Of a stretch of DNA of 64,000 bases, positions 14,372 through 61,348 are shown piece by piece. Each line of letters opens with the position of its first letter. Position 1 is the stretch's first letter. The notes beneath the pieces were generated by a model. The model was given only the letters and a program-made list of their open reading frames with translations. It was not told where the DNA came from and made no database searches. This stretch comes from Pseudacidovorax sp. NFM-22 (GTDB lineage: Bacteria > Pseudomonadota > Gammaproteobacteria > Burkholderiales > Burkholderiaceae_C), in the NCBI RefSeq assembly GCF_021401245.1, contig NZ_JACBFY010000006.1, positions 310,001-374,000 on the forward strand, in the 5' to 3' direction. The position numbers were made by a program, and so were the translations under genes.

Positions 14372-15190
14372 TCAGTGGGCCGGCGAGGGCCGGCCTTCGC
14401 CGACGATGCTGTCGTGCTGGGGCTGCCACATCGCGCGGGCCGCCTGGGCATCGGCCCGGGGCGTGCACAGCCACATCTCGTGCCCGGGCCGGGCCCGTAT
14501 CTGCAGGCCCGACGAGCGCAGCATGGCTTCCACCGCGGCAGCGTTGGGGGCCCACCAGTTGGTGGGGTCGCCGGCCAGGCGCTCCTCGATGAAGGCCATG
14601 CGCGGCCAGCCGGGTGCGCACAGCCGCGCGCGCTCGTCGATGCCGCAGTCGGGGGCGCCGTCCACCGCGTCGCCGGGCAGGGTGAGCGTCTGGAACATCA
14701 TCAGCCGCCGGGTGCGGCGGGCCAGCAGGTCCAGCGCCAGCAGCGGGTAGCGCAGGTGGTAGAAGACGCCCATGAACCACACCAGGTCGAAGTCGCCCGG
14801 CTCGCCGGCCAGGTCATAGACCTGGGCGCAGCGGAAGTCGATGCGCCCGGCCAGGCCCATCTCGCCGGCGGCCCAGCGCGCCTGGTCGAGGTAGTGCGGG
14901 TCCACGTCCAGCGCCAGCACCTGCGCGCCGCGCCGGGCCAGCTCGAAGCTGTAGAAGCCGGCGTTGCAGCCCACGTCCAGCACGCGCCAGCCGCGCAGGT
15001 CCTCGGGCAGATGCGGCGCGATCTGCAGCCATTTGAAGCGCGGGAAGTCGCCGCCCAGCGGGTGTTCGGGCAGCGTCTGCAGGCCGCTGGGCAGGTGCAG
15101 GTTGTGGAACCAGGGGCCGAGTTCGCGCACGCGGCGGCGCTGGGCGTCGAGGGCGGCCTCGATGGCCTCGGGCGGTGGCGCGCTGGTCAT
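14372..15190 (-). CDS. SAM-dependent methyltransferase (CmoB-like, of the type found in glycosyltransferase clusters)
   Basis: This 272-residue protein has a Rossmann methyltransferase core: GWRVLDVGCNAGFYSFELA (motif I), VLALDVDPHYLDQA, and FDLVWFMGVFYHLRYPLLAL, which resembles the motif of tRNA-modifying CmoB. The N-terminal segment (LGPWFHNLHLPSGLQTLPEH) is also CmoB-like. From memory it resembles the Rta_06860-type methyltransferases that sit with CgeB-like glycosyltransferases; I cannot check this. It is the last gene of the polysaccharide operon and starts inside the stop of the previous gene (ATGA at 15187-15190). The substrate is probably a sugar or cyclitol glycoside intermediate (inference). 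Confidence 0.8.
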   Translation of the reverse strand: MTSAPPPEAIEAALDAQRRRVRELGPWFHNLHLPSGLQTLPEHPLGGDFPRFKWLQIAPHLPEDLRGWRVLDVGCNAGFYSFELARRGAQVLALDVDPHYLDQARWAAGEMGLAGRIDFRCAQVYDLAGEPGDFDLVWFMGVFYHLRYPLLALDLLARRTRRLMMFQTLTLPGDAVDGAPDCGIDERARLCAPGWPRMAFIEERLAGDPTNWWAPNAAAVEAMLRSSGLQIRARPGHEMWLCTPRADAQAARAMWQPQHDSIVGEGRPSPAH

Positions 15191-16512
15191 GGCGAGGCCT
15201 CCGGCGACACGGCCACACCCATCGCCTCGGCCACATAGGCCTCCAGTTCGCGCGCCCGGTGTTCTGCGGTGTGCGCGCCCAGCACGCGCTGGCGCGCGGC
15301 CTCGCCGGCGGCGCGGCGCTGGTCCTCGGGCAGGTCGGTCAGCAGGGCCAGCACCTCGTCGGCGCTGTCGGCCAGGAAGATCTCGCGCCCCGGCGTCAGC
15401 ACGTCCTCGATGCCCGCCCAGCGGTCGCTGATGATGGGCGTGCCACAGGCGGCGGCCTCGAACAGCCGCACGCTGGGCGACCAGCCGGCCGCCCGCATAT
15501 CGGCGCGCGTGAGGTTGAGTGTGAAGCGCTGGCTGCCGTAGAAGGCGCGGTGCTCCGGCGGCGGCAGGTGCGGCACGTAGCGCACGTTGGCCGGCCAGTC
15601 CTCGGTGCCGGGATGGTTGGCGCCCGCGACCGCGAAACGGCCCTGCGGCCAGCGGCGTGCGGGGGCCAGCAGCAGCGTCTCCAGTCCGGCGCGGCGGTCG
15701 GTGCTGTCGGTGCCCATGTAGCCCAGGTCCAGGCTGCATGCCACGTCCTGCATCGCATGCAGCTGCGGGTCGACCGCGCAATACAGCACCCGCGCCGCGC
15801 GGGCGCCGAACTGCCGCTCCAGCCGCTCCAGGGTGGGGCCGCCGGTGAACGAGAGGTACAGGTCGTAGCCGGGCAGCTGGCTGTGCGAGAGGTAGGTGCA
15901 GGCCTGCTGTGCCAGCGCGGCGAGGGTGACGGGCGTGTCGATGTCATAGAAGGCCGTGACCCCGCGCGCCTGCTTCTGCACCCAGTCGCCCACCTCGATG
16001 CCGTCGGGCACGAAGGAGCCGACGATCACCAGGTCGGCGCCGGCGATGGCCTCGCCCCACTGCGTGCGCAGAGTCTCCAGGTCTTCGTACAGGACGGTGC
16101 GGCACCAGGGGGGATCGGGCAGATCGCGGTGGCTGGCATACCAGGGCACGTCGCGCTCCAGGAAGAGCACGTCGTGCCCGCGCTGCGCCAGGGCGCGAAC
16201 CAGCGCGCGCCAGGTGGTCGCGTGGCCGTTGCCCCAGGAGGAGGTGATGGACAGGCCCAGGATGGCGATGCGCAGCGGGCGCTCGGCGAGGGAGTGAGCG
16301 ATCTCCAGCGGTTCGGGCTGAGCGTCCCCGGACCATTCGGAAGGAGCACCTTCCAGCCGTCCGGGCTGAGCACCCCCCGACCGTTCGGGCTGAGCAAACC
16401 CCATCCGTTCGGGCTGAGCCTGTCGAAGCCGGGGCCCCTCCGTCGCCCGCGCGCCGTCCTGCCCTTCGACAGGCGCAGGGCGAACGGAGTGGGGTGCTGC
16501 GCCTGCGTTCAT
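15187..16512 (-). CDS. CgeB-like glycosyltransferase 1, with repeat-encoded N-terminal extension
   Basis: This 441-residue protein has a conserved GT-B fold from about residue 80 (LRIAILGLSITSSWGNGHATT) and a C-terminal nucleotide-sugar domain (NLTRADMRAAGWSPSVRLFEAAACG, then PIISDRWAGIEDVL), as in CgeB/DUF3880-type enzymes. The first 75 or so residues are low-complexity and consist of eight-residue repeats (PERMGFAQ, PERSGGAQ, PGRLEGAP, SEWSGDAQ) encoded by a DNA repeat array. The start at 16512 overlaps the previous stop as ATGA. A later internal start would remove the repeat part, but I see no obvious one. It is one of three paralogues in tandem; the acceptor is unknown. Confidence 0.82.
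   Translation of the reverse strand: MNAGAAPHSVRPAPVEGQDGARATEGPRLRQAQPERMGFAQPERSGGAQPGRLEGAPSEWSGDAQPEPLEIAHSLAERPLRIAILGLSITSSWGNGHATTWRALVRALAQRGHDVLFLERDVPWYASHRDLPDPPWCRTVLYEDLETLRTQWGEAIAGADLVIVGSFVPDGIEVGDWVQKQARGVTAFYDIDTPVTLAALAQQACTYLSHSQLPGYDLYLSFTGGPTLERLERQFGARAARVLYCAVDPQLHAMQDVACSLDLGYMGTDSTDRRAGLETLLLAPARRWPQGRFAVAGANHPGTEDWPANVRYVPHLPPPEHRAFYGSQRFTLNLTRADMRAAGWSPSVRLFEAAACGTPIISDRWAGIEDVLTPGREIFLADSADEVLALLTDLPEDQRRAAGEAARQRVLGAHTAEHRARELEAYVAEAMGVAVSPEASP
16303..16490. repeat. Array of 24-bp repeats bounded by inverted TTCGACAGGCTCAGG-type elements
   Basis: About five degenerate 24-bp units built on CGTTCGGGCTGAGC lie between about 16305 and 16420. They are followed by CTGTCGAAGCC and, after a spacer, by the inverted copy GCCCTTCGACAGGCGCAGGG with GCGAACGG near 16461-16487. 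The array lies inside the 5' part of the CgeB-like gene and stays in frame (eight codons per unit). The same core forms the array at 20.9-21.2 kb. Confidence 0.75.
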
Positions 16513-17618
16513 ACCGCCTCCCGCACGCCGGGCGCCACATCGGCGCCCTCGAACAGCGCCTCCACCTGCGCGGCCCGGTGCGCATAGGTGTGGTGGGCCA
16601 GCACGCGCCGCAGGGCGGCCTGGCCGATGGCGCGGGCGCGGGCCGGGTCCAGCGCGTCCAGGTGGGCGGCGACGGCGGCCCCGTCCTCGGCCACCAGCAC
16701 CTCGGTGTCCGGCTCCAGGAAGTGCTCGATGCCGGGCCAGGCGTCGGTGATCAGGCAGGCGGCCGCGCCCGCCGCCTCGAACACCCGGGTGGCCGGCGAG
16801 AAGCCGCAGCGCGCCATGCTCTCGCGGCTGATGTTGAGCACGGCCCGCGTGCTGCAGTTGAAGGCGTTGTGGTCGGCCGTGTAGACATGGCCCAGGTGCC
16901 GCACGTTGGCGGGCAGGGCGCGGTCCTGCCAGCCGCTGCCGCCCAGCAGGAAGGCGCGGTGTGGCAGGCGCCCGGCGGCATTGAGGAAGAAGGCCTCCAC
17001 CCGGGCCTCGCGGTCGGGCAGGCGGTTGCCCAGGAAGCCCAGGTCGGCCTCGAAGCGCGGATCGGCCGCGACCGGGAAATGCGTCTCCGGGTCCAGCGCG
17101 TTGTAGACGGGCACGCAGCCGCGGGCGCCCAGTTCGAGGTAGGCCGCCACCACCGGCTCGCCCCCGCCGTAGGTCAGCACCAGGTCGAAGTCGGGCACCA
17201 GCGCGCGCAGCGGGTCGGTCGCATCGGCCTGCATGCGCGCCAGGGTGGCGGGCGCGTCCACGTCCCAGAACACCACCTGGGCGGTGGGCGCGCGCAGGGC
17301 CAGCACGGCGGACTCCAGCAGCGAATCGAACACGCCCACGCCGCTGGCCTTGACGATCAGGTCCGCGCCGCGGGCCTCTTCCACGCAGCGCAGCGCGGCG
17401 GCGGCGTCGTCGCCGGGATAGACCGTCACGCGGGCCCAGGGTGGGTCCGGGATGTCGCGGTGCTGCTGGCGGCCATAGGCATCGGGTTCGTAGAAGCGCA
17501 CGCGGTGGCCGCGCGCGGCCAGGGCGCGCAGCATGCCGCGGTAGTAGGTGGCGGCACCGTTCCAGTAGGCCGAGACCAGGCTCGAGCCGAAGAAGGCGAT
17601 GTCCAGCGGACGGGTCAT
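16509..17618 (-). CDS. CgeB-like glycosyltransferase 2
   Basis: This 369-residue GT-B enzyme begins MTRPLDIAFFGSSLVSAYWNGAA in parts, and has the CgeB-type C-terminal signature NISRESMARCGFSPATRVFEAAG followed by CLITDAWPGIEHFL. It shares a plan with the two neighbouring paralogues: an N-terminal domain starting with an IAFFGSSL strand, a central FDLVLTYGGG strand where the other copies have YDLYLSFTGG, and a C-terminal donor-binding half. It overlaps both neighbours by 4 bp (ATGA at 17615-17618 and 16509-16512). It probably adds one sugar in a glycolipid or polysaccharide pathway; donor and acceptor cannot be read from the sequence. Confidence 0.83.
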   Translation of the reverse strand: MTRPLDIAFFGSSLVSAYWNGAATYYRGMLRALAARGHRVRFYEPDAYGRQQHRDIPDPPWARVTVYPGDDAAAALRCVEEARGADLIVKASGVGVFDSLLESAVLALRAPTAQVVFWDVDAPATLARMQADATDPLRALVPDFDLVLTYGGGEPVVAAYLELGARGCVPVYNALDPETHFPVAADPRFEADLGFLGNRLPDREARVEAFFLNAAGRLPHRAFLLGGSGWQDRALPANVRHLGHVYTADHNAFNCSTRAVLNISRESMARCGFSPATRVFEAAGAAACLITDAWPGIEHFLEPDTEVLVAEDGAAVAAHLDALDPARARAIGQAALRRVLAHHTYAHRAAQVEALFEGADVAPGVREAV

Positions 17619-18745
17619 GCAGGGCTCCGGGTGTGGGTGACGGTGGTGGCAGGGGCGGACGAGGAGAGCGCCCGGTGGATGGCCAGCAGCTGGTCCACGC
17701 GGTGAGCGCAGGTGTGGCGGGCCAGCACGGTGGCGCGGCCACGGGCGGCCATCTCGCGGGCCATGGCGGGGTCGTTCTTCAGCGCCCGCAGGTGCTGGCG
17801 CATCTCGTCGCCGTCGCGGGCGACGAGGTAGTCGCTGCCGGGGTGGAACAGGTGCTCGCTGTCGTTCCAGGGCGCGGTGACCAGCGGGATGCCACAGGCC
17901 AGCGCCTCGAACATGCGGATGGTGGGAATGCCCGGCAGCTGTTGCGCATAGGGCCGCCGCGGCACGTGCACCGTGCAGCCGAAGCGGGCGAAGGCGCGGG
18001 GCACCGCATGGTTGGGCAGCCAGCCGCGGTAGTCGATGCCGCAGGCGCGCAGGCGGCCCAGGGCCTCGGGCGGATAGCGCACGCCATGCACGCGGGCCGA
18101 CAGGTGCAGGTCGGCCACGGGCTTGAGCAGGAACTCCTCCAGCTCGGCGGTGCGCTCCTCGTCGCCCCAGTTGCCGATCCAGATCAGGTCGCCGGCCCGC
18201 GGCAGGTTGGCCACCGGATGGAAGCGCCGCGCATCGGCCGCCTCGTGCCAGGTCCAGGCGCGGTGGGCCCAGCCCTGGGCCAGGTAGAGCTCGCGGATCA
18301 CTTCGCCGAAGGCCAGCACGCCGTCGTAGTCCTCCAGCGCGTAGGCGCTCATGGCCTTCGGGTCGGTCCTGCTCCTGTGGTGCGTGTCGTGGAAGAACAG
18401 GCGGTAGCGGTGGTCGCGCCGGTGGCGGCCGATGCGCTTGACCAGGGCCGGGTCGCTCCATTCGTGCACCAGCACCAGGTCGGCGCCGGCGAGGGCGCGG
18501 TCCAGGTCCAGGCTGGCGGGCTCGTAGAGATGGCTGCGCAGGCGCGGATAGGCCTGACGGAAGCCTTCGAGGGCCGAGGGGCCCTGCTCGGCCACCATCT
18601 GGGTGCGGCTCCAGCTGTCCTGCGGCTCGTACACGCGCAGGCTGTGGCCGCGCAGCAGCAGCTCCTGGCAGACACCGCGCAGGAAGTGGGCGTTGCCATG
18701 GTTCCAGCAGGAGACCAGCGAATGGCAGAAGAGGACGATGTGCAT
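17615..18745 (-). CDS. CgeB-like glycosyltransferase 3
   Basis: This 376-residue GT-B protein begins MHIVLFCHSLVSCWNHGNAH. It has LIWIGNWGDEERTAEL in the donor half, then VHVPRRPYAQQLPGIPTIRM and FEALACGIPLVTAPWNDSEHLF, the usual CgeB-type glycosyltransferase ending. The start at 18745 is preferred because the fold begins with IVLFCHSL; a start at 18784 would add 13 unsupported residues and overlap the upstream gene. It lies 16 bp after the GT4 gene and overlaps the next gene by 4 bp. It is more diverged than the other two paralogues. Confidence 0.83.
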   Translation of the reverse strand: MHIVLFCHSLVSCWNHGNAHFLRGVCQELLLRGHSLRVYEPQDSWSRTQMVAEQGPSALEGFRQAYPRLRSHLYEPASLDLDRALAGADLVLVHEWSDPALVKRIGRHRRDHRYRLFFHDTHHRSRTDPKAMSAYALEDYDGVLAFGEVIRELYLAQGWAHRAWTWHEAADARRFHPVANLPRAGDLIWIGNWGDEERTAELEEFLLKPVADLHLSARVHGVRYPPEALGRLRACGIDYRGWLPNHAVPRAFARFGCTVHVPRRPYAQQLPGIPTIRMFEALACGIPLVTAPWNDSEHLFHPGSDYLVARDGDEMRQHLRALKNDPAMAREMAARGRATVLARHTCAHRVDQLLAIHRALSSSAPATTVTHTRSPA

Positions 18746-18761
18746 CGGGTTCGGGGCTCCG

Positions 18762-19946
18762 TCAGATGAAGGGCTGGGCCGCACGCTGCGCGCCCGGGGC
18801 GCCGGAGGCCGGGCCGGCGGCAGGCGGTGTGGCAGGCGGATGGCGATCGGGCGCCTGCCTCAGCGCCTGGTACAGGCCGAGATAGGCGCCGGCCATGCGT
18901 GCGGGCGTGAACTGCAGCGCCCGCTCGCGGGCGGCGTCCGCCAGTTCGCGCCGCCGCGGCTCGTCGGCCAGCAGGCGCACCAGGGCGTCGCCCAGCGCGG
19001 CTGCGTCGCCGGGCGGCACGAAGATGGCGGCGCCTTCCCAGGTTTCGCGCAGGCTGTCGATGTCGCCCAGCACCAGCGCGCAGCCGCTGAGGGCCGCCTC
19101 CAGCACGGTCTGGCCGAAAGGCTCGTAGCGGGCCGGCAGGCAGTAGACGGCGGCGGCGGCATAGGCGCGCGCCATGCTGCTGGGGGGCAGCGGGCCGAGC
19201 GCGCAGAGCGGATGGGTGTCGACGGCCTGGCCGTCGGGTCCGCGGGTGGGGCCGGCCACGCGCACTTCCCAGCCCGCGGGCAGCGCAGAGGCAGCGCGGC
19301 GCAGCGTCTCCAGGTTCTTGGCCGGATCCCACAGCCGGCCGGCACTGAGCACCAGCGGCCGCTTGGTGCCGGCGACGAAGCGGCGCGGGTTGCGGCCATT
19401 GGGCAGCACATGGCCGGCGCGGTGCACGCCGTGGTGCCGTGCCACGGCGGCCAGCATGGCCTGCGTGGGGGCCGCGATGGCGCTGGCGCCTTCCAGGCCC
19501 GCGCGCACGGCGGCGCGGTAGCGGTCCCACTGGGCGGGCGCCGCTTCGCCATGCACGGCCTGCCACCACGACAGCACGCAGGAATGGGCCACCACCAGCG
19601 TGGGCGCGTCGAAGGGCAGGGCGCCGAAGGCGAACTGGTTCAGGTGCACCACGTCCGGCCGCAACCGGCCGGCCAGGGCCAGCAGCCATTCGCCGGCGCG
19701 GCGCACCTCGTCCCAGGGTTCGTGCATCCACTCCAGCGTGCCCTCGTGCACCTGCAAGGTCAGCCCGCGCACGGCGCCGGCTTCGGCGCGCTGGCGCTGC
19801 GTGGGCGGTGGCCCCAGTGCGGCCAGCACCACGCGGTGGCCCCAGCCCGCGAGAGCGCGTGCCAGTTCGATGCTGTGCTGCCACACGCCGCCGACGGTGT
19901 CGGTGGTCATCAGCACGCGCAGGGGCCGCGCCTCAGGCACGTCCAT
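18762..19946 (-). CDS. Family 4 glycosyltransferase
   Basis: This 394-residue GT-B retaining glycosyltransferase begins RVLMTTDTVGGVWQHSIELA, with the glycogen synthase-like GGVW. It has VLSAGRLWDPAKNLETLRRA in the middle and the GT4 nucleotide-sugar motif PARYEPFGQTVLEAALSGCA. Part of the N-terminal domain (PDVVHLNQFAFGALPFDAP) is also typical. The C-terminal 35 residues are Pro/Ala-rich and probably disordered. It overlaps the preceding oxidoreductase gene by 14 bp. It is likely to act in the cytoplasm on the same glycoconjugate as the CgeB-like enzymes. Confidence 0.9.
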   Translation of the reverse strand: MDVPEARPLRVLMTTDTVGGVWQHSIELARALAGWGHRVVLAALGPPPTQRQRAEAGAVRGLTLQVHEGTLEWMHEPWDEVRRAGEWLLALAGRLRPDVVHLNQFAFGALPFDAPTLVVAHSCVLSWWQAVHGEAAPAQWDRYRAAVRAGLEGASAIAAPTQAMLAAVARHHGVHRAGHVLPNGRNPRRFVAGTKRPLVLSAGRLWDPAKNLETLRRAASALPAGWEVRVAGPTRGPDGQAVDTHPLCALGPLPPSSMARAYAAAAVYCLPARYEPFGQTVLEAALSGCALVLGDIDSLRETWEGAAIFVPPGDAAALGDALVRLLADEPRRRELADAARERALQFTPARMAGAYLGLYQALRQAPDRHPPATPPAAGPASGAPGAQRAAQPFI

Positions 19947-21213
19947 AGAGCTGGTCCAGCAGTTCGGCCACGCGCAGGGCCTGCCAGGCCTCGGCGTCGA
20001 AGCGCCCGCCTGTCGCCACGGCGCGGGCCCATTGCACCGCGGCGCGGCCGCCCCAGTCGTCGGGCGGGCCGGCCAGGCGCTCGGCGCGGGTGCCGTGGCA
20101 GCGCTCGGCCACGAAGTCGTAGAAGGAGCCGTCCACGTTGGTCATGCGCGCGCTGCCGCGGGTGCCGTGGAAGTGGGCCTCGATCACCGCGTCGCGCCCG
20201 GCCGAAAGGTTCCAGGAACAGGCCAGCCGCACGCTGGTGCCCGGCGCCAGGGTGAACTGGGCCAGGGCATGGTCCTCGACCTCGTCGGGCGCGGGGCCCA
20301 GGCGTCGGCCCTGCGCGTACAGCCGCGCCGAGGCTTCGTCGGCCACGGGAAAGTCCATGACCCACAACGCCAGGTCCACCAGGTGCGTGCCCAGGTCGAT
20401 CAGGCAGCCGCCGCCCGCGAGCGCCGGGTCGCGGAACCAGGCCTTGTCGGGCCCATAGGCGTTGTGGAAGACCAGGTCGATGGCATAGACCTCGCCCAGC
20501 TCGCCGCTGCGCACCTGCGCGGCCACGGCCCGCGCGGCGGCGGTGTGGCGGTAGCACAGGTCCACGCCCAGCCGCCGGTCGGCGCGCTGCGCGGCCTCGA
20601 TGACGGCGCGCGTTTCCGCGGCGGTGCGGGCCAGGGGCTTCTGGCAGAAGACGGCGAGGCCGGCCTCCAGCGCCGCGCGGGCCTGGGCGGCATGCAGGGC
20701 GCTGGGCGTGGCGATGACCAGGCCGTCGAGCGGCAGCCCGGCCGGCAGGTCGAGGGCGCCGGGCAGGGTGCGGGCCGCCGGGGCCAGCGCCGCCGCGGCA
20801 TTGAGGCTGGCGGGGTCGCTGTCGCACAACAGCAGCGCCTGGGCGGCGCCGTCCTGCAGCAGGGCCTGCATGCGGTGGCGGCCGATCCAGCCCACGCCGA
20901 GAAAGCCGAGCTGGGCGGGCCTGAGCGCCGCCTGCGCGCCGTTCTGCCCTTCGACAAGCTCAGGGCGAACGGGGTCAGGGTCTTGGTGACCCCCTTCCCG
21001 TTCGGGCCCAGGGCGAACGGAGCCAGGGTCTTGGCGACCCCCTTCCCGTTCGGGTCCAGGGCGGACGGAGGCAGGGTCTTGGTGGCCCCCTACCCGTTCG
21101 GGCCCAGGGCGAACGGAGTCAGGGTCGTGATGACCCCCTGCCCGTTCGGGCTGAGCTTGTCGAAGCCAGGGCGCGCCTGCCGCCTGCGCGCCGTTCGTCA
21201 TCCGCGCGTTCAC
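19933..21213 (-). CDS. Gfo/Idh/MocA family oxidoreductase with repeat-encoded N-terminus
   Basis: This 426-residue protein has an NAD(P)-binding fold that starts only near residue 98 (LGFLGVGWIGRHRMQALL). It is followed by CQKPLARTAAETRAVIEAA, with the conserved EKP-type lysine as QKP, and by GGCLIDLGTHLVDLALWVM, with the catalytic D-x-x-x-H. The first 95 residues are mostly four 16-residue repeats (PERVGGHQDPASVRPG and variants) encoded by a 48-bp DNA repeat. The GTG at 21213 overlaps the upstream stop (GTGA). It probably oxidises or reduces a sugar or inositol intermediate; inositol is plausible because an inositol-phosphate synthase gene is nearby. Confidence 0.85.
   Translation of the reverse strand: MNARMTNGAQAAGAPWLRQAQPERAGGHHDPDSVRPGPERVGGHQDPASVRPGPEREGGRQDPGSVRPGPEREGGHQDPDPVRPELVEGQNGAQAALRPAQLGFLGVGWIGRHRMQALLQDGAAQALLLCDSDPASLNAAAALAPAARTLPGALDLPAGLPLDGLVIATPSALHAAQARAALEAGLAVFCQKPLARTAAETRAVIEAAQRADRRLGVDLCYRHTAAARAVAAQVRSGELGEVYAIDLVFHNAYGPDKAWFRDPALAGGGCLIDLGTHLVDLALWVMDFPVADEASARLYAQGRRLGPAPDEVEDHALAQFTLAPGTSVRLACSWNLSAGRDAVIEAHFHGTRGSARMTNVDGSFYDFVAERCHGTRAERLAGPPDDWGGRAAVQWARAVATGGRFDAEAWQALRVAELLDQLYGRA
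20927..21195. repeat. Four 48-bp tandem repeats in an inverted-repeat-bounded element with 17-bp flanking direct repeats
   Basis: Units of 48 bp (CAGGGCGAACGG, then CAGGGTCTTGG, then CCCGTTCGGG) repeat four times between about 20960 and 21150. The array is bounded by CCCTTCGACAAGCTCAGG at about 20947 and its inverse CTGAGCTTGTCGAAG at about 21151. The 17-mer GCCGCCTGCGCGCCGTT flanks the whole block at 20927-20943 and 21179-21195. The block is in frame inside the oxidoreductase gene. Confidence 0.8.
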
Positions 21214-22238
21214 GCGATGCCCTCCGGCACCACCAGCGCCTTGAGGAAGCCGTCGGGCCGCTCCCGGGTGAGGGTCAGGGCCTCGTCCAGCCGCGACATC
21301 GGCAGCTGGTGGGTGAAGAACTCGCGCGGGTCCAGCCGGCCTTCCTGCACCCAGGCGATGGCGCGGCGCATGCCGTCGATGTAGCGCGCGGGCTGGCGCT
21401 CGTGCGCGTTCACCACGTCCAGGCCGCGCCAGTTCCATTGCTGCAGGTTGACCTGGCGCAGGCCGTCCTGGTGGTAGCCGGCGATCACCAGCCGGCCGCC
21501 TTCGGCCGCGAGGGCGCTGGCCAGGTCGAGCGTGGACTGCAGGCCCGCCGCCTCGATCACCCGCTCGCACAGCCGGCCGCCGGTCAGCTCGGCCACGGCG
21601 GCGGTGGCGGCCTGCAGGTCGGCCACGTCCAGGGCCTCCTCGGCCCCGAAGCGCAGCGCCATCTGGCGCGCATAGGCCCGGCGCGAGAGCGCGATCACCC
21701 GCGCGCCGGCCTGGCTGGCCAGGCGCGTGAGCACCGCGCCCAGAAAGCCGATGCCCACGATGGCCACCGTCTGGCCCGCGCGGATGTCGCTGCGTTCCAG
21801 GATGTTGGCGGCGCAGGCCAGCGGCTCGCCCGGGAAGGGCAGGCCCTCCAGCGAGGGCGGCAGTGGCAGCACCGCGGCGGCGTCGGCGACATCGAATTCG
21901 GCATGGCCGGCGTAACTCAGCGCGGCGACGCGCTGCCCGGGCCGCAGCCCTTCCACGCCCGCCCCCACGGCCTCGATGCGGCCCCAGGCCTCGTGGCCCG
22001 GCGCGCCCGGCGGCAGCGGATAGTCGAACCAGGGCCGGCCTTCCCACACCGGCAGGCTGGAGGCGCAGACGCCGCAGCCTTCCAGGCGCAGCAGCACCTG
22101 GCCCGGGCCGGGCCGGGGACGCGCCACCTGCGCGACGGCGAAGCGGCCCGGCTCGGCGAGCACGGCGGCCTGCATGCTCGGCGCGGCCCCGGCCCCCGCG
22201 GCGGTGCGGTCGACCTCGAATGCGGCGGCGTCGTTCAT
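21210..22238 (-). CDS. Medium-chain (zinc-type) alcohol dehydrogenase family protein
   Basis: This 342-residue MDR protein has the catalytic-domain Cys motif LEGCGVCASSLPVWEG, PGHEAWGRIEAVGAGVEGL, and an NAD-binding motif VAIVGIGFLGAVLTRLA. The four-Cys lobe that binds structural zinc in classical alcohol dehydrogenases is absent. It begins inside the stop of the epimerase gene upstream (ATGA) and ends inside the oxidoreductase start (GTGA). Sorbitol/threonine dehydrogenase-like members act on polyols, so a role in making the sugar or cyclitol donor of this cluster is possible. Confidence 0.87.
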   Translation of the reverse strand: MNDAAAFEVDRTAAGAGAAPSMQAAVLAEPGRFAVAQVARPRPGPGQVLLRLEGCGVCASSLPVWEGRPWFDYPLPPGAPGHEAWGRIEAVGAGVEGLRPGQRVAALSYAGHAEFDVADAAAVLPLPPSLEGLPFPGEPLACAANILERSDIRAGQTVAIVGIGFLGAVLTRLASQAGARVIALSRRAYARQMALRFGAEEALDVADLQAATAAVAELTGGRLCERVIEAAGLQSTLDLASALAAEGGRLVIAGYHQDGLRQVNLQQWNWRGLDVVNAHERQPARYIDGMRRAIAWVQEGRLDPREFFTHQLPMSRLDEALTLTRERPDGFLKALVVPEGIA

Positions 22239-32602: not shown

Positions 32603-33280
32603 CTAGCTGCGGAACAGCCGTGAATACTGCGTCTCGTGCCGCGCCGACAGGATGGCCAGCATGGGCGAGAAGGACTGGCGCCGTTCGTCGGGCAGGACCA
32701 TCGCGGCCTCGACCGCGGCGGGGATCTCCTTCGCCAGCCGCGCCAGGATGCGCTGGCCGGCGCTCTGGCCCAGCGGCACGGCCTTGATGGCGGCGGCGCT
32801 CATGTTCTCGGCCCAGCCGAAGGCGAAGGCCAGACAGCCGTCCTGGGCGCTGGCACCCGCGCGCGCGGCCGCGAAGGCGAAGGCCACGGGGTAGGTGGGC
32901 GGCAGCTCGGCGAAGCAGGCGGCGGCATCGGCATGGTGCAGCTTGAGCCATTCGACGAAGGAGCGGCCCATCTGCTCGGTCTGCAGCAGGAACTCGGCGG
33001 ATTCGCGCGTCTGCCTCACCCAGTCGTTGAGCGACTGCACGCGGGCCAGGTCGCCCGCCGACCAGGCGGCGATGGCCTGGGCCACCACCGACAGGTCGCC
33101 GCGCGCGAGGCTCAGGTGCAGCTGGCCTGCCAGCCAATCGGCCGCGGTGGCCTCGTCCTTGACGCCGGCCCATTCGATGGCGGCCTCGAGCCCTTCGGAA
33201 TACGAGAAGCCACCCACGGGCAGCGCGGGCGAGGCGAGCCAGATCAGTTGCAGAAGGCTGTGTGGGGCGAGCGGCATCAT
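32603..33280 (-). CDS. ureF: Urease accessory protein UreF
   Basis: This 225-residue all-helical protein works with UreG and UreD to activate urease. It has [37 protein letters not shown] and the C-terminal [15 protein letters not shown] region conserved in UreF. It is separated from ureE by 198 bp containing a dispersed inverted repeat, which is unusual in an otherwise tight operon. No ureD gene is seen in the window. Confidence 0.96.
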
Positions 33281-33328
33281 GGCGTGACGATGGCCTGCTT
33301 CGAAGGCCCAGCGCCGTTGGCTGTTTCT

Positions 33329-33444
33329 CCCTCTCCCCTCGTGGGAGAGGGCCGGGGAGAGGGGGCGGCCCGCACGAGGGGGCTGCGTGGGTGGGGCGCG
33401 GGCCGCCCCCTCTCCCCAACCCCTCTCCCACGAGGGGAGAGGGG
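33329..33444. repeat. Dispersed inverted repeat (CTCTCCCCTCGTGGGAGAG type) between ureF and ureE
   Basis: Two near-identical arms of about 42 bp (33329-33370 and 33401-33444) are inverted around a 30-bp loop. Each arm contains a smaller palindrome, CTCTCCCctcgtGGGAGAG. A second copy of the same element is at 60495-60605. It could form a large hairpin in the urease transcript and lower ureF and ureG expression. Confidence 0.85.
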
Positions 33445-33478
33445 CGCGAACGGGGGCTGGCTGCGGCGCACGTGCGCC

Positions 33479-59059: not shown

Positions 59060-60436
59060 TCAGTTGTGTGATGGAGAGCCGATTGGCAGCGCCAGCCGCA
59101 TCCGCAGCCCCGGCTGCGCGCCCTCCGCCGCCAGCCGGCCGCCATGCAGGGCGGCGACGGCGCGCACGTTGGCCAGGCCCAGGCCGTGGCCGGGCAGCTC
59201 GGGCTGGAGGCGGGTGAATCGCTCGCCGATGCGGGCCAGGTCGGCCTCGGGCACGCCGGGGCCGTCGTCCTGCACGTCGACGATGGCCTGGCCGGCGGCC
59301 ATCGCGGTGCCGATGCGCACGGTGCTGCCGGGGCCTCCGTACTTCAGCGCGTTGTCCACCAGGTTGGCGATGGCGCCGGCCAGCAGGTCGCGGTCGCCGT
59401 CCACCCAGGCCTCGTCCGTGGGTTCGCGCAGCAGGTGCGCGCCCTGGCTCTCGGCGACGGCCTCGTACAGCTCCAGCACGTCGTCGGCGATGGTGTGCAG
59501 GGCCACGGGCGCGAAGGCGCGGCGGCGGGCGCCGGCCTCGGCCTCGGCGATCTGCAGCAGCTTCTGGAACACGGTGCCCAGGTCCTGCAACTCGTGCACC
59601 GCGCGGTCGATGGCCTCGCGGCGCGCCGCATCGTCCGCGCTGGGCGCCTGCGCCGCCTGCAGGCCCAGCAGGGCGCGGGTAAGCGGCGTGCGCAGCTCGT
59701 GCGCGATGGTGTTGGAGACATGGCGCACGCCTTCCATCAGCGACTCGATGCGGTCGAGCATGGCGTTGATGTCCTGGCCCAGGCGCGCGAATTCGTCGTC
59801 GCCCGTGGCCATGTCCACCCGCTCGGCCAACCGGCCTTCCTCGGCGATGCGGCCCGCCGTGCGGCGCACCCGGCCCACGGCCTGCTCCAGCTCCTGGCGG
59901 AACACGAAGACGCCACCCACCAGCAGCAGCAGCGCGATCAGGCCCGCGGCGGCGCTGGCGCTGACGACCAGCGATTCGAGCGCGTCCTGGTCGCTCAGGT
60001 CATGCCCGACGACCAGCAGCGCGTCGCCCGGCAGCCGGCGCACGGCCAGGTAGCCGGTGATGGTGGTGCCGCCCCGTTGCGCGCGCTGCTGGCCGTCGCG
60101 GTTGCCGGTGGCGTCGGCCGGCGGCGCATCCAGGTTGCCGGCCAGGCGCGTGCCGTCCGGCTGCCACAGGCCGAAGAGCTCGGTGTCGGATTGCCGGCCG
60201 TCGTCCAGCGCGCGGCCGATGGCGGCGGCCACGGCCTCCAGGCCCTGCTGCTCGGCCCGTGCCTGCATCTGCGTGGTGGTGACACCCACTTGCCGCGCGA
60301 TGCGCTGGTGCAGCACGCCCACGGTCTGCAGGTAGACGATGGCCAGCGCCGCCATCATGGTGATGGCCACGAGCACGGCGTACTGGAAGGCGAGCCGGAA
60401 GCCCACCGAGGCCCACAGGCGGCGCCAGGCCTTCAT
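59060..60436 (-). CDS. Sensor histidine kinase
   Basis: This 458-residue protein has two membrane helices (QYAVLVAITMMAALAIVYL and AGLIALLLLVGGVFVFRQ) around a periplasmic domain of about 130 residues, then HAMP, HisKA (IAHELRTPLTRALLGLQ) and an ATPase domain (LVDNALKYGG, VQDDGPGVPEAD, GHGLGLANVRAVAA). It is the partner of the OmpR-type regulator upstream. The ATG at 60436 is favoured over 60457. The signal is unknown. A 198-bp spacer carrying a dispersed inverted repeat separates the two genes. Confidence 0.93.
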   Translation of the reverse strand: MKAWRRLWASVGFRLAFQYAVLVAITMMAALAIVYLQTVGVLHQRIARQVGVTTTQMQARAEQQGLEAVAAAIGRALDDGRQSDTELFGLWQPDGTRLAGNLDAPPADATGNRDGQQRAQRGGTTITGYLAVRRLPGDALLVVGHDLSDQDALESLVVSASAAAGLIALLLLVGGVFVFRQELEQAVGRVRRTAGRIAEEGRLAERVDMATGDDEFARLGQDINAMLDRIESLMEGVRHVSNTIAHELRTPLTRALLGLQAAQAPSADDAARREAIDRAVHELQDLGTVFQKLLQIAEAEAGARRRAFAPVALHTIADDVLELYEAVAESQGAHLLREPTDEAWVDGDRDLLAGAIANLVDNALKYGGPGSTVRIGTAMAAGQAIVDVQDDGPGVPEADLARIGERFTRLQPELPGHGLGLANVRAVAALHGGRLAAEGAQPGLRMRLALPIGSPSHN

Positions 60437-60494
60437 GGCTGCTGCACCGGATGCCACGCGCCGACGGCGTGCGATGGCGACAGGCGGACTTCCT

Positions 60495-60605
60495 CCCTCT
60501 CCCCTCGCGGGAGAGGGCCGGGGAGAGGGGGCGGCGGCGCTTGCGGAGGTCGTGCGTCGTGGGCACGCCCCCTCTCCCCAACCCCTCTCCCGCGAGGGGA
60601 GAGGG
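60495..60605. repeat. Dispersed inverted repeat (CTCTCCCCTCGCGGGAGAG type) between response regulator and kinase
   Basis: Two arms of about 38-40 bp (60495-60533 and 60566-60605) are inverted and share their sequence with the element at 33329-33444. The repeat lies in the gap of an otherwise normal two-gene operon. Confidence 0.85.
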
Positions 60606-60634
60606 GCTCATACGGGCCCCCATGCTGCGCCATG

Positions 60635-61348
60635 TCAGTTCTGAGCCGGGTCGTCCGGGGCTGCCAGCCGATAGCCCACGCCGCGCTCGGTGTGGATCAG
60701 CGGCGGGCCGCCGGCACCGTCGAGCTTGGTGCGCAGGCGGCTGATCTGCACGTCGATCACATTGGTCTGCGGATCGAACTGGTAGTCCCACACGGCTTCG
60801 AGCAGCATGGTGCGGGTCATGACCTGGCCCGCGTTGAGCATCAGGCAGGCGAGCAGGCGGAACTCGCGCGGCTGCAGCGCCACCGGCTTGCCGCCGCGCT
60901 CGGCCTTGCGCGTGCCCAGGTCCAGCCGCAGGTCGGCCACCTGCAGCACGCGCTGCTCGGGGCCGGGTCGGGCGCGCCGCACCAGCGCCTCGGCGCGTGC
61001 CGCCAGTTCGGAGAAGGCGAAGGGCTTGGCCAGGTAGTCGTCGCCGCCGGCCTTGAGGCCGCGCACCCGCTCGTCGAGCGCGCTCAGGGCGCTGAGCACC
61101 AGCACCGGCGTGCGCAGGCCCAGGTTGCGCAGCGTGCCCAGGATGGCCAGCCCGTCGATGCCGTTGGGCAGCATGCGGTCGAGGATGACCAGGTCCCAGG
61201 CCTCGCCCGTGGCGCGCGCCAGCGCATCGGCGCCGTCGCGGCTGACGGCGACCGTGTGGCCCATGCGGCGCAGGCCGTCGGCGATGTAGCGGGCGTTGGC
61301 CTCGTCGTCCTCGACGAGCAGGCAGCGCCAGGGCAGGGTCTCGTTCAT
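60635..61348 (-). CDS. OmpR/PhoB-type response regulator
   Basis: This 237-residue protein has a receiver (CLLVEDDEANARYIADGL, phosphorylated Asp in DLVILDRMLPNGIDGL, VLSALSALDERV, YLAKPFAFSELAAR) and a winged-helix output (ALQPREFRLLACLMLNAGQV, then VDVQISRLRTKLDGAGG and TERGVGYRLAAPD). It starts inside the recJ stop (ATGA), an unusual coupling of signalling to DNA repair. Confidence 0.94.
   Translation of the reverse strand: MNETLPWRCLLVEDDEANARYIADGLRRMGHTVAVSRDGADALARATGEAWDLVILDRMLPNGIDGLAILGTLRNLGLRTPVLVLSALSALDERVRGLKAGGDDYLAKPFAFSELAARAEALVRRARPGPEQRVLQVADLRLDLGTRKAERGGKPVALQPREFRLLACLMLNAGQVMTRTMLLEAVWDYQFDPQTNVIDVQISRLRTKLDGAGGPPLIHTERGVGYRLAAPDDPAQN

Follow-up and report, generated by a model that had tools for sequence, protein, structure and literature searches.

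The window analysed here is a 64,000-nucleotide stretch of the genome of Pseudacidovorax sp. NFM-22. At the locus of interest, an oxidoreductase gene of the GFO/IDH/MocA type lies on the minus strand directly downstream of a gene for a zinc-binding alcohol dehydrogenase-type protein, and the 5′ portion of its reading frame carries a compact cluster of repeats. A second cluster of the same kind occupies the start of a glycosyltransferase-like gene. The features are as follows, the anatomy of the first cluster being our interpretation of its parts.

15187-16512, minus strand: glycosyltransferase-like gene (PF13524), whose N-terminal tail includes the second cluster in frame
16288-16484: second cluster of the same repeat family, a dimer with a 37-nt spacer (right core with one mismatch) plus half units of 24-nt period; absent from the syntenic site of the related genome G008
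19933-21213, minus strand: GFO/IDH/MocA-type oxidoreductase gene carrying the first cluster, recognized by Pfam PF01408 and PF22725 and by its start and frame
20927-21196: first cluster, REP-like, read as the right half of one dimer, core-deleted units and the left half of another dimer
20927-20949, plus strand: 23 nt that match the final part (positions 15-37) of a dimer spacer of 37 nt, holding the first 18-mer (20927-20944)
20950-20972, plus strand: right arm, core TTCGACAAGCTCAG at 20950-20963 followed by CGAACGG at 20966-20972
20961-21151, plus strand: four tandem 48-bp units, each CGRACGG, linker and CCGTTCGG, with the hairpin core absent at inner junctions
21142-21164, minus strand: left arm, CCGTTCGG at 21142-21149 and inverted core at 21151-21164
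21165-21196, plus strand: 32 nt that match the first part (positions 1-32) of such a spacer, holding the second 18-mer (21179-21196)
21210-22238, minus strand: zinc-binding alcohol dehydrogenase-type gene, directly upstream of the oxidoreductase gene

An initial reading made from the letters alone had recognized four 48-bp repeats at this site, and TRF agrees, reporting 4.0 copies of the unit with 88% matches and a score of 305. The same reading described the array as bounded by inverted copies and flanked by identical 17-mers. The inverted copies are indeed identical over 14 nt, although the fifteenth base differs in the second copy, and the direct repeat at the cluster edges is exact but one base longer than had been given, at 18 nt, with a start-to-start distance of 252. 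The window's own pieces fold little or no better than shuffled sequences, with z-scores of -1.33 and -0.37 for the first cluster and -1.82 for the second; the weak folding of the two first-cluster pieces is in keeping with their missing cores.

What the sequence-only reading overlooked, along with the in-frame cluster in the glycosyltransferase-like gene, is that these repeats belong to a family dispersed throughout the genome. Exact copies of the 14-nt core TTCGACAAGCTCAG occur 85 times in the 6.4-Mb genome and those of a second 14-nt core, TTCGACAGGCTCAG, 103 times (188 exact cores together), and neither core occurs even once when read backwards; the repeats are not a product of chance. Each family unit consists of a conserved CCGTTC tag and a small hairpin whose short, covarying stem surrounds the sequence GAGCYTGTCGA. 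Each position of the tag is conserved in 160 to 166 of the 169 distinct units. Invariance of the core follows from its use as the search pattern, but the covarying positions lie outside it: the first variable stem pair is paired in 165 of 169 units (shuffle mean 91.6, maximum 109) and the second in 158 (shuffle mean 80.9, maximum 103). The next pair outward, paired in 83 of 169 units against a shuffle mean of 89.7, has no covariation support. The supported stem is thus 4 bp long and encloses an 11-nt loop, and there is no fixed tail.

Units are frequently arranged head to head. We counted 53 pattern matches to such dimers in the examined regions and the window, of which 45 fall into three recurrent spacer classes (14-16 nt, n=19; 24-27 nt, n=16; 34-37 nt, n=10; other lengths, n=8), a feature typical of REPs. 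Other broad REP features are likewise present, namely a small palindrome in high copy number and compensatory changes in the stem. A full-length copy at positions 413534-413633 of contig C18 of the window genome, in an intergenic-looking location, folds as one long hairpin (z -8.45 against shuffles) and is missing from the syntenic site of G008; one 208-kb contig of that genome, C4, contains no exact core of either kind. Contigs C11 (353966-354339) and C15 (396040-396322) of the window genome hold larger, mixed groupings of this family, in which several cores share a span of a few hundred bases.

Knowledge of the family changes how the edges of the first cluster are best understood. The initial reading took the flanking direct repeat as a duplicated target, and a mobile element that duplicated 17-18 bp of target and then expanded would leave exactly such a repeat at both ends of an insert that is absent from two close orthologues. 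However, the 18-mer belongs to the dimer spacer of the family itself. An 18-nt stretch that overlaps it (13 of its bases plus TGCCC) is found at 28 places in the genome with no more than two mismatches, compared with 2 places for the reversed control. Fifteen of the 28, the window's own included, directly adjoin an exact core; the 13 others include the second window cluster, with its mismatched core. Moreover, the right-hand spacer piece followed by TGCCC measures exactly 37 nt, the length class of six other dimers (five elsewhere in addition to the second window cluster), and the direct repeat corresponds to spacer positions 15-32, the stretch common to both truncated spacer pieces. Two dimers cut inside their spacers therefore explain the direct repeat, and no target duplication is needed.

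The remaining evidence on this question concerns empty sites. Neither close orthologue, in G008 or in G005, carries the 18-mer. At the full-length copy on contig C18, a single 11-nt stretch of the empty site in G008 aligns with both flanks, which are alike at 8 of 10 positions, as a short target duplication might leave them; random flank pairs reach that score 594 times in 2000, so that the likeness could come from a short duplication or from chance. Inspection by eye revealed no target duplication at the second cluster of the window, nor in alignments of the four genes considered below. For the first cluster we regard a 17-18 bp target duplication as very unlikely, on the grounds that the 18-mer is family spacer and is absent from both orthologues.

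A different account of the same anatomy deserves slightly more weight. A circular repeat intermediate that recombined into a pre-existing spacer remnant could have yielded a permuted dimer flanked by a shared 18-mer. The parts stand in the order right arm, array, left arm, which corresponds to a dimer (left arm, spacer, right arm) permuted as a circle, and if the two ends are joined at the 18-mer an exact 37-nt spacer is restored. Circular intermediates also form part of a published REP model cited in the main text of Di Nocera et al. 2013 (PMC3733652). Yet truncation of two dimers at unrelated points of their spacers leads to an identical arrangement and calls for no special event, and no spacer remnant is visible in the orthologues, such that we consider recombination of a circle unlikely. 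Our preferred anatomy for the cluster would be two dimers truncated inside 37-nt spacers, with core-deleted 48-bp units between them, and the 48-bp array might have grown by slippage or unequal exchange.

The consequences for the host gene depend on its reading frame. The proposed GTG start of the oxidoreductase overlaps the stop codon (TGA) of the alcohol dehydrogenase-type gene upstream, and the same GTG is in frame with the oxidoreductase in the window genome and in the two close orthologues. Most of that upstream gene is absent at the G008 locus, where short pieces of it align. The minus-strand frame is open across the whole cluster and runs on into the enzyme, as had been noted from the letters, and three of the six frames of 20927-21196 are free of stops. 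Only two start codons lie 5′ of the element, the GTG at codon 1 and an ATG at codon 5; the next is codon 107, which is already within the Rossmann glycine motif, and none is present between the element and the motif. A complete oxidoreductase product must therefore carry the N-terminal tail of about 84 residues that the cluster would add, in front of the NAD-binding fold as first described. Its Pfam content consists of PF01408 and C-terminal domains.

The enzyme itself is conserved. Codon changes private to the window genome comprise 29 synonymous and 4 non-synonymous substitutions, a count that spans lineage time both before and after the insertion, compared with 36 and 7 for G008 and 22 and 13 for G005. 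An AlphaFold model of the oxidoreductase has pLDDT values of at least 90 for 272 of 426 residues and below 50 for residues 1-94, where the input homologues, trimmed to the fold, provide no alignment depth and low confidence is to be expected anyway. The tail is accordingly predicted to be disordered, ahead of an intact enzyme.

These observations bear on the possibility that the element serves as a signal for transcription or mRNA stability in front of a gene that is dead or that starts elsewhere. Many family copies do lie beside gene ends: of 101 clusters, 26 have convergent coding flanks and 3 have divergent ones. Di Nocera et al. caution in their main text that N-terminal REP copies may be extragenic if translation starts downstream. 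That caution does not carry over to this cluster, because no downstream start is available before the fold, and with the reading frame intact and the lineage's changes mostly synonymous, a signalling role ahead of a dead or differently started gene retains only a slight probability.

Another interpretation, that the repeats form an old functional N-terminal domain of the oxidoreductase, could appeal to an in-frame, stop-free array with a periodicity of 16 residues. The initial reading had proposed that repeats shared by homologues in distant genera would argue for such a domain. The core was found in none of 80 homologous loci, most of them searched with 3 kb on each side, and the distance from the nearest start codon to the fold in these loci is just 1-46 codons. 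The same cores, moreover, occur at many other places in the genome, mostly outside any continuous coding frame, and an old domain is scarcely credible. The gene without the element can be inspected directly in close relatives: the closest named homologues, from Pseudacidovorax sp. RU35E (94%) and P. intermedius NS331 (91%), taken here as the orthologues of G008 and G005, lack the cluster, and the N-terminal stretch is unlike in all three species compared (the window genome and the two orthologues). The claim that an insertion had occurred has thus held up, and the insertion looks confined to the lineage.

Taken together, the open frame, the lack of a start between the element and the Rossmann motif, the predominance of synonymous changes and the absence from relatives make a lineage-specific and tolerated N-terminal insertion the most likely explanation. 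We are rather confident that the cluster is an in-frame, REP-like insertion from a dispersed family that spreads in the genus, composed of two spacer-truncated dimers. According to the course of events that we envisage, a family of REP-like hairpins bearing the CCGTTC tag, often as head-to-head dimers, would spread within the genus, and one cluster would have entered a non-conserved N-terminal stretch of the oxidoreductase after its lineage had split from the sequenced relatives. It would owe its persistence to a length divisible by three and to a reading frame free of stops. The family may be mobilized in trans by some nuclease or transposase. We expect that the tail is translated and that it brings the enzyme no benefit; most likely, the cluster is selfish and tolerated.

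The family is found well beyond this strain. Element DNA was matched in 13 of 15 genomes of the genus (the window genome included) and in neither G002 nor G003. Among 299 genomes drawn from the phylum, TTCGACAAGCTCAG occurs at least once in 44 and at least five times in 14, three of the latter belonging to the window genome's own bacterial family (itself included), seven to one other family and four elsewhere. The dimer also has matches in 20 named plasmid records, which in 17 cases cover at least 80% of the query; their hosts are Sphingobium (13), Comamonas (2) and Polaromonas, Sphingomonas, Variovorax, Novosphingobium and Methylotuvimicrobium (1 each). No annotated feature is listed under the best-matching place on any of the 20 records, in a gene table that is itself incomplete. 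The distribution of the family is patchy and extends across classes, Pseudacidovorax being a betaproteobacterium and the sphingomonads alphaproteobacteria. Neither the Rfam search of positions 16000-22000 (up to E 1) nor phage records produced a match.

Within the window genome, most copies lie outside genes. The comparison covers 101 clusters, made up of 97 regions and two window regions and including the listed TTCGACAAGCTCAG regions and 40 of the 46 clusters that contain only TTCGACAGGCTCAG (six left out), the TTCGACAGGCTCAG clusters having been drawn from 100 of 103 places. By a strict codon-score classification, only seven of the 101 have the same coding frame on both sides, five of them open throughout. 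The corresponding figure is 40% for 2000 random points in a 244-kb region around the window, a comparison in which stops in the gap were left unchecked. This difference indicates that the family is mainly extragenic, another REP feature. Because the classifier misses terminal insertions, neither window cluster was called intragenic, and the assignment of both rests on comparison with orthologues; at the glycosyltransferase-like gene, the tail in G008 is short.

A looser pass of the codon-score method yielded six clusters that are open throughout, YgiQ being the addition. The internal hosts, named from Pfam and NCBIfam matches to partial proteins, are Tex, UvrA, a carboxyltransferase, Mfd, YgiQ and a GlcD-like FAD/Fe-S protein. 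For four of these genes, element-bearing and element-free orthologues exist among genomes of the same genus. Tex carries an exact core in 3 of 15 genomes and UvrA in 6 of 15; for the carboxyltransferase the figure is 9 of 13 (G005 and G001 being set aside, owing to a contig end and to a match that was only weaker and paralogue-like), and for Mfd 10 of 15. When remnants identified by eye in alignments and translations are included, the counts become 3, 8, 11 and at least 13, respectively. An open, stop-free frame was confirmed for 56 of 58 rows; the remaining two are Tex in G007 and G004, in which the anchors were not located. All four genes are free of cores in the two genomes of the genus with no element match.

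The left arm is read as VRAEPVEA and variants thereof in all six internal cases and in both window clusters. Of the two further left-arm frames, one contains a stop, and the other (PFGLSLSKP) occurs in a single C-terminal tail. This regularity is an impression and not a statistic.

Comparison with known systems places the family near, but apart from, described REPs. The main text of Di Nocera et al. (PMC3733652) describes REPs tagged GTAG or CGTC that form head-to-head dimers, often with conserved spacers, favour the gaps between co-directional and convergent genes and include intragenic copies, many of them in repair genes such as uvrA. The family reported here resembles these REP/BIME systems in its small tagged stem-loops, head-to-head dimers, recurrent spacers and clusters, in having some in-frame copies, one of them in uvrA, and in its preference for gaps between convergent or co-directional genes. 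However, its CCGTTC tag is not of the GTAG type, and it has no core near the Y1 genes that were examined, in contrast to the GTAG-tagged superfamily as that text presents it. The CGTC-tagged superfamily is portrayed there as having a CGTC tag, a stem of 8-9 bp, a loop of 4-5 nt and a CCA-type tail, which differs from the tag, shorter supported stem, larger loop and lack of a fixed tail found here. Acidovorax, Delftia, Variovorax, Polaromonas and names beginning with Burkholderi- or Sphingo- do not appear in that main text. We file the family as REP-like and outside both tagged superfamilies.

Adjacency to RAYT (Y1) genes was considered and rejected. Of the 15 genomes, 14 have a single Y1_Tnp gene each, and none of these 14 genes has an exact core within 1.5 kb. 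Such a gene is present in all 13 element-bearing genomes and also in the element-free G003. The sole Y1_Tnp (IS200-like) match found in the window genome lies at 138034-138324 of contig C16, with no exact core within about 1.5 kb.

For entry into proteins, the known in-frame case is that of the Rickettsia palindromic elements (RPEs), which, as outlined in two reviews (PMC10969869, PMC2229807), are palindromic repeats found in frame in unrelated protein genes, as here. The likeness is one of description and extends to in-frame insertion in conserved genes that lack the element in some orthologues. Unlike what those accounts convey for Rickettsia, few clusters here lie inside a gene frame, given the seven that share a frame on both sides in a genome of this size. 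MITEs with in-frame fusions, such as ERIC and Correia (covered in part of PMC2229807), are also small, non-autonomous repeats able to extend reading frames, but here we find no clear target duplication and no autonomous partner.

The first cluster is ordinary in kind, and its interest lies in the entry of the family into housekeeping genes and in the fact that we found no paper on it. Among the papers listed by full-text literature searches with the letters of the core or the peptide, none concerned such a repeat, which, given that titles and the starts of abstracts were consulted and that subscription journals are thinly covered, is weak evidence of absence. Searches by subject pointed to work on REPs, MITEs and RPEs. 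Our findings suggest that a process of the Rickettsia type, by which palindromic repeats become protein sequence, also operates in the genus Pseudacidovorax and reaches the housekeeping genes uvrA, mfd and tex, for which closely related genomes provide ready-made pairs of occupied and empty sites. They also serve as a warning against taking every direct repeat that borders a repeat cluster for a target duplication, since it can instead be spacer that belongs to the family.

A more ambitious proposal, which we consider improbable as a whole, is that CCGTTC marks a third, undescribed REP-like tag class common to betaproteobacteria and sphingomonads. Members of such a class would move in trans without an adjacent Y1 gene, perhaps through circular intermediates that give rise to permuted arrays, and would repeatedly occupy the same loops of UvrA, Mfd and Tex. 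Copies in a frame of the VRAEPVEA type would persist, thereby feeding disordered linkers into the proteome.

The genome also harbours another palindromic family, with arms of the form CCCTCTCCC ... GGGAGAGGG, which was not seen at the syntenic sites of G008. Its members lie in the window at 33273-33475 and 60431-60653, and on contig C18 of the window genome at 396222-396419.
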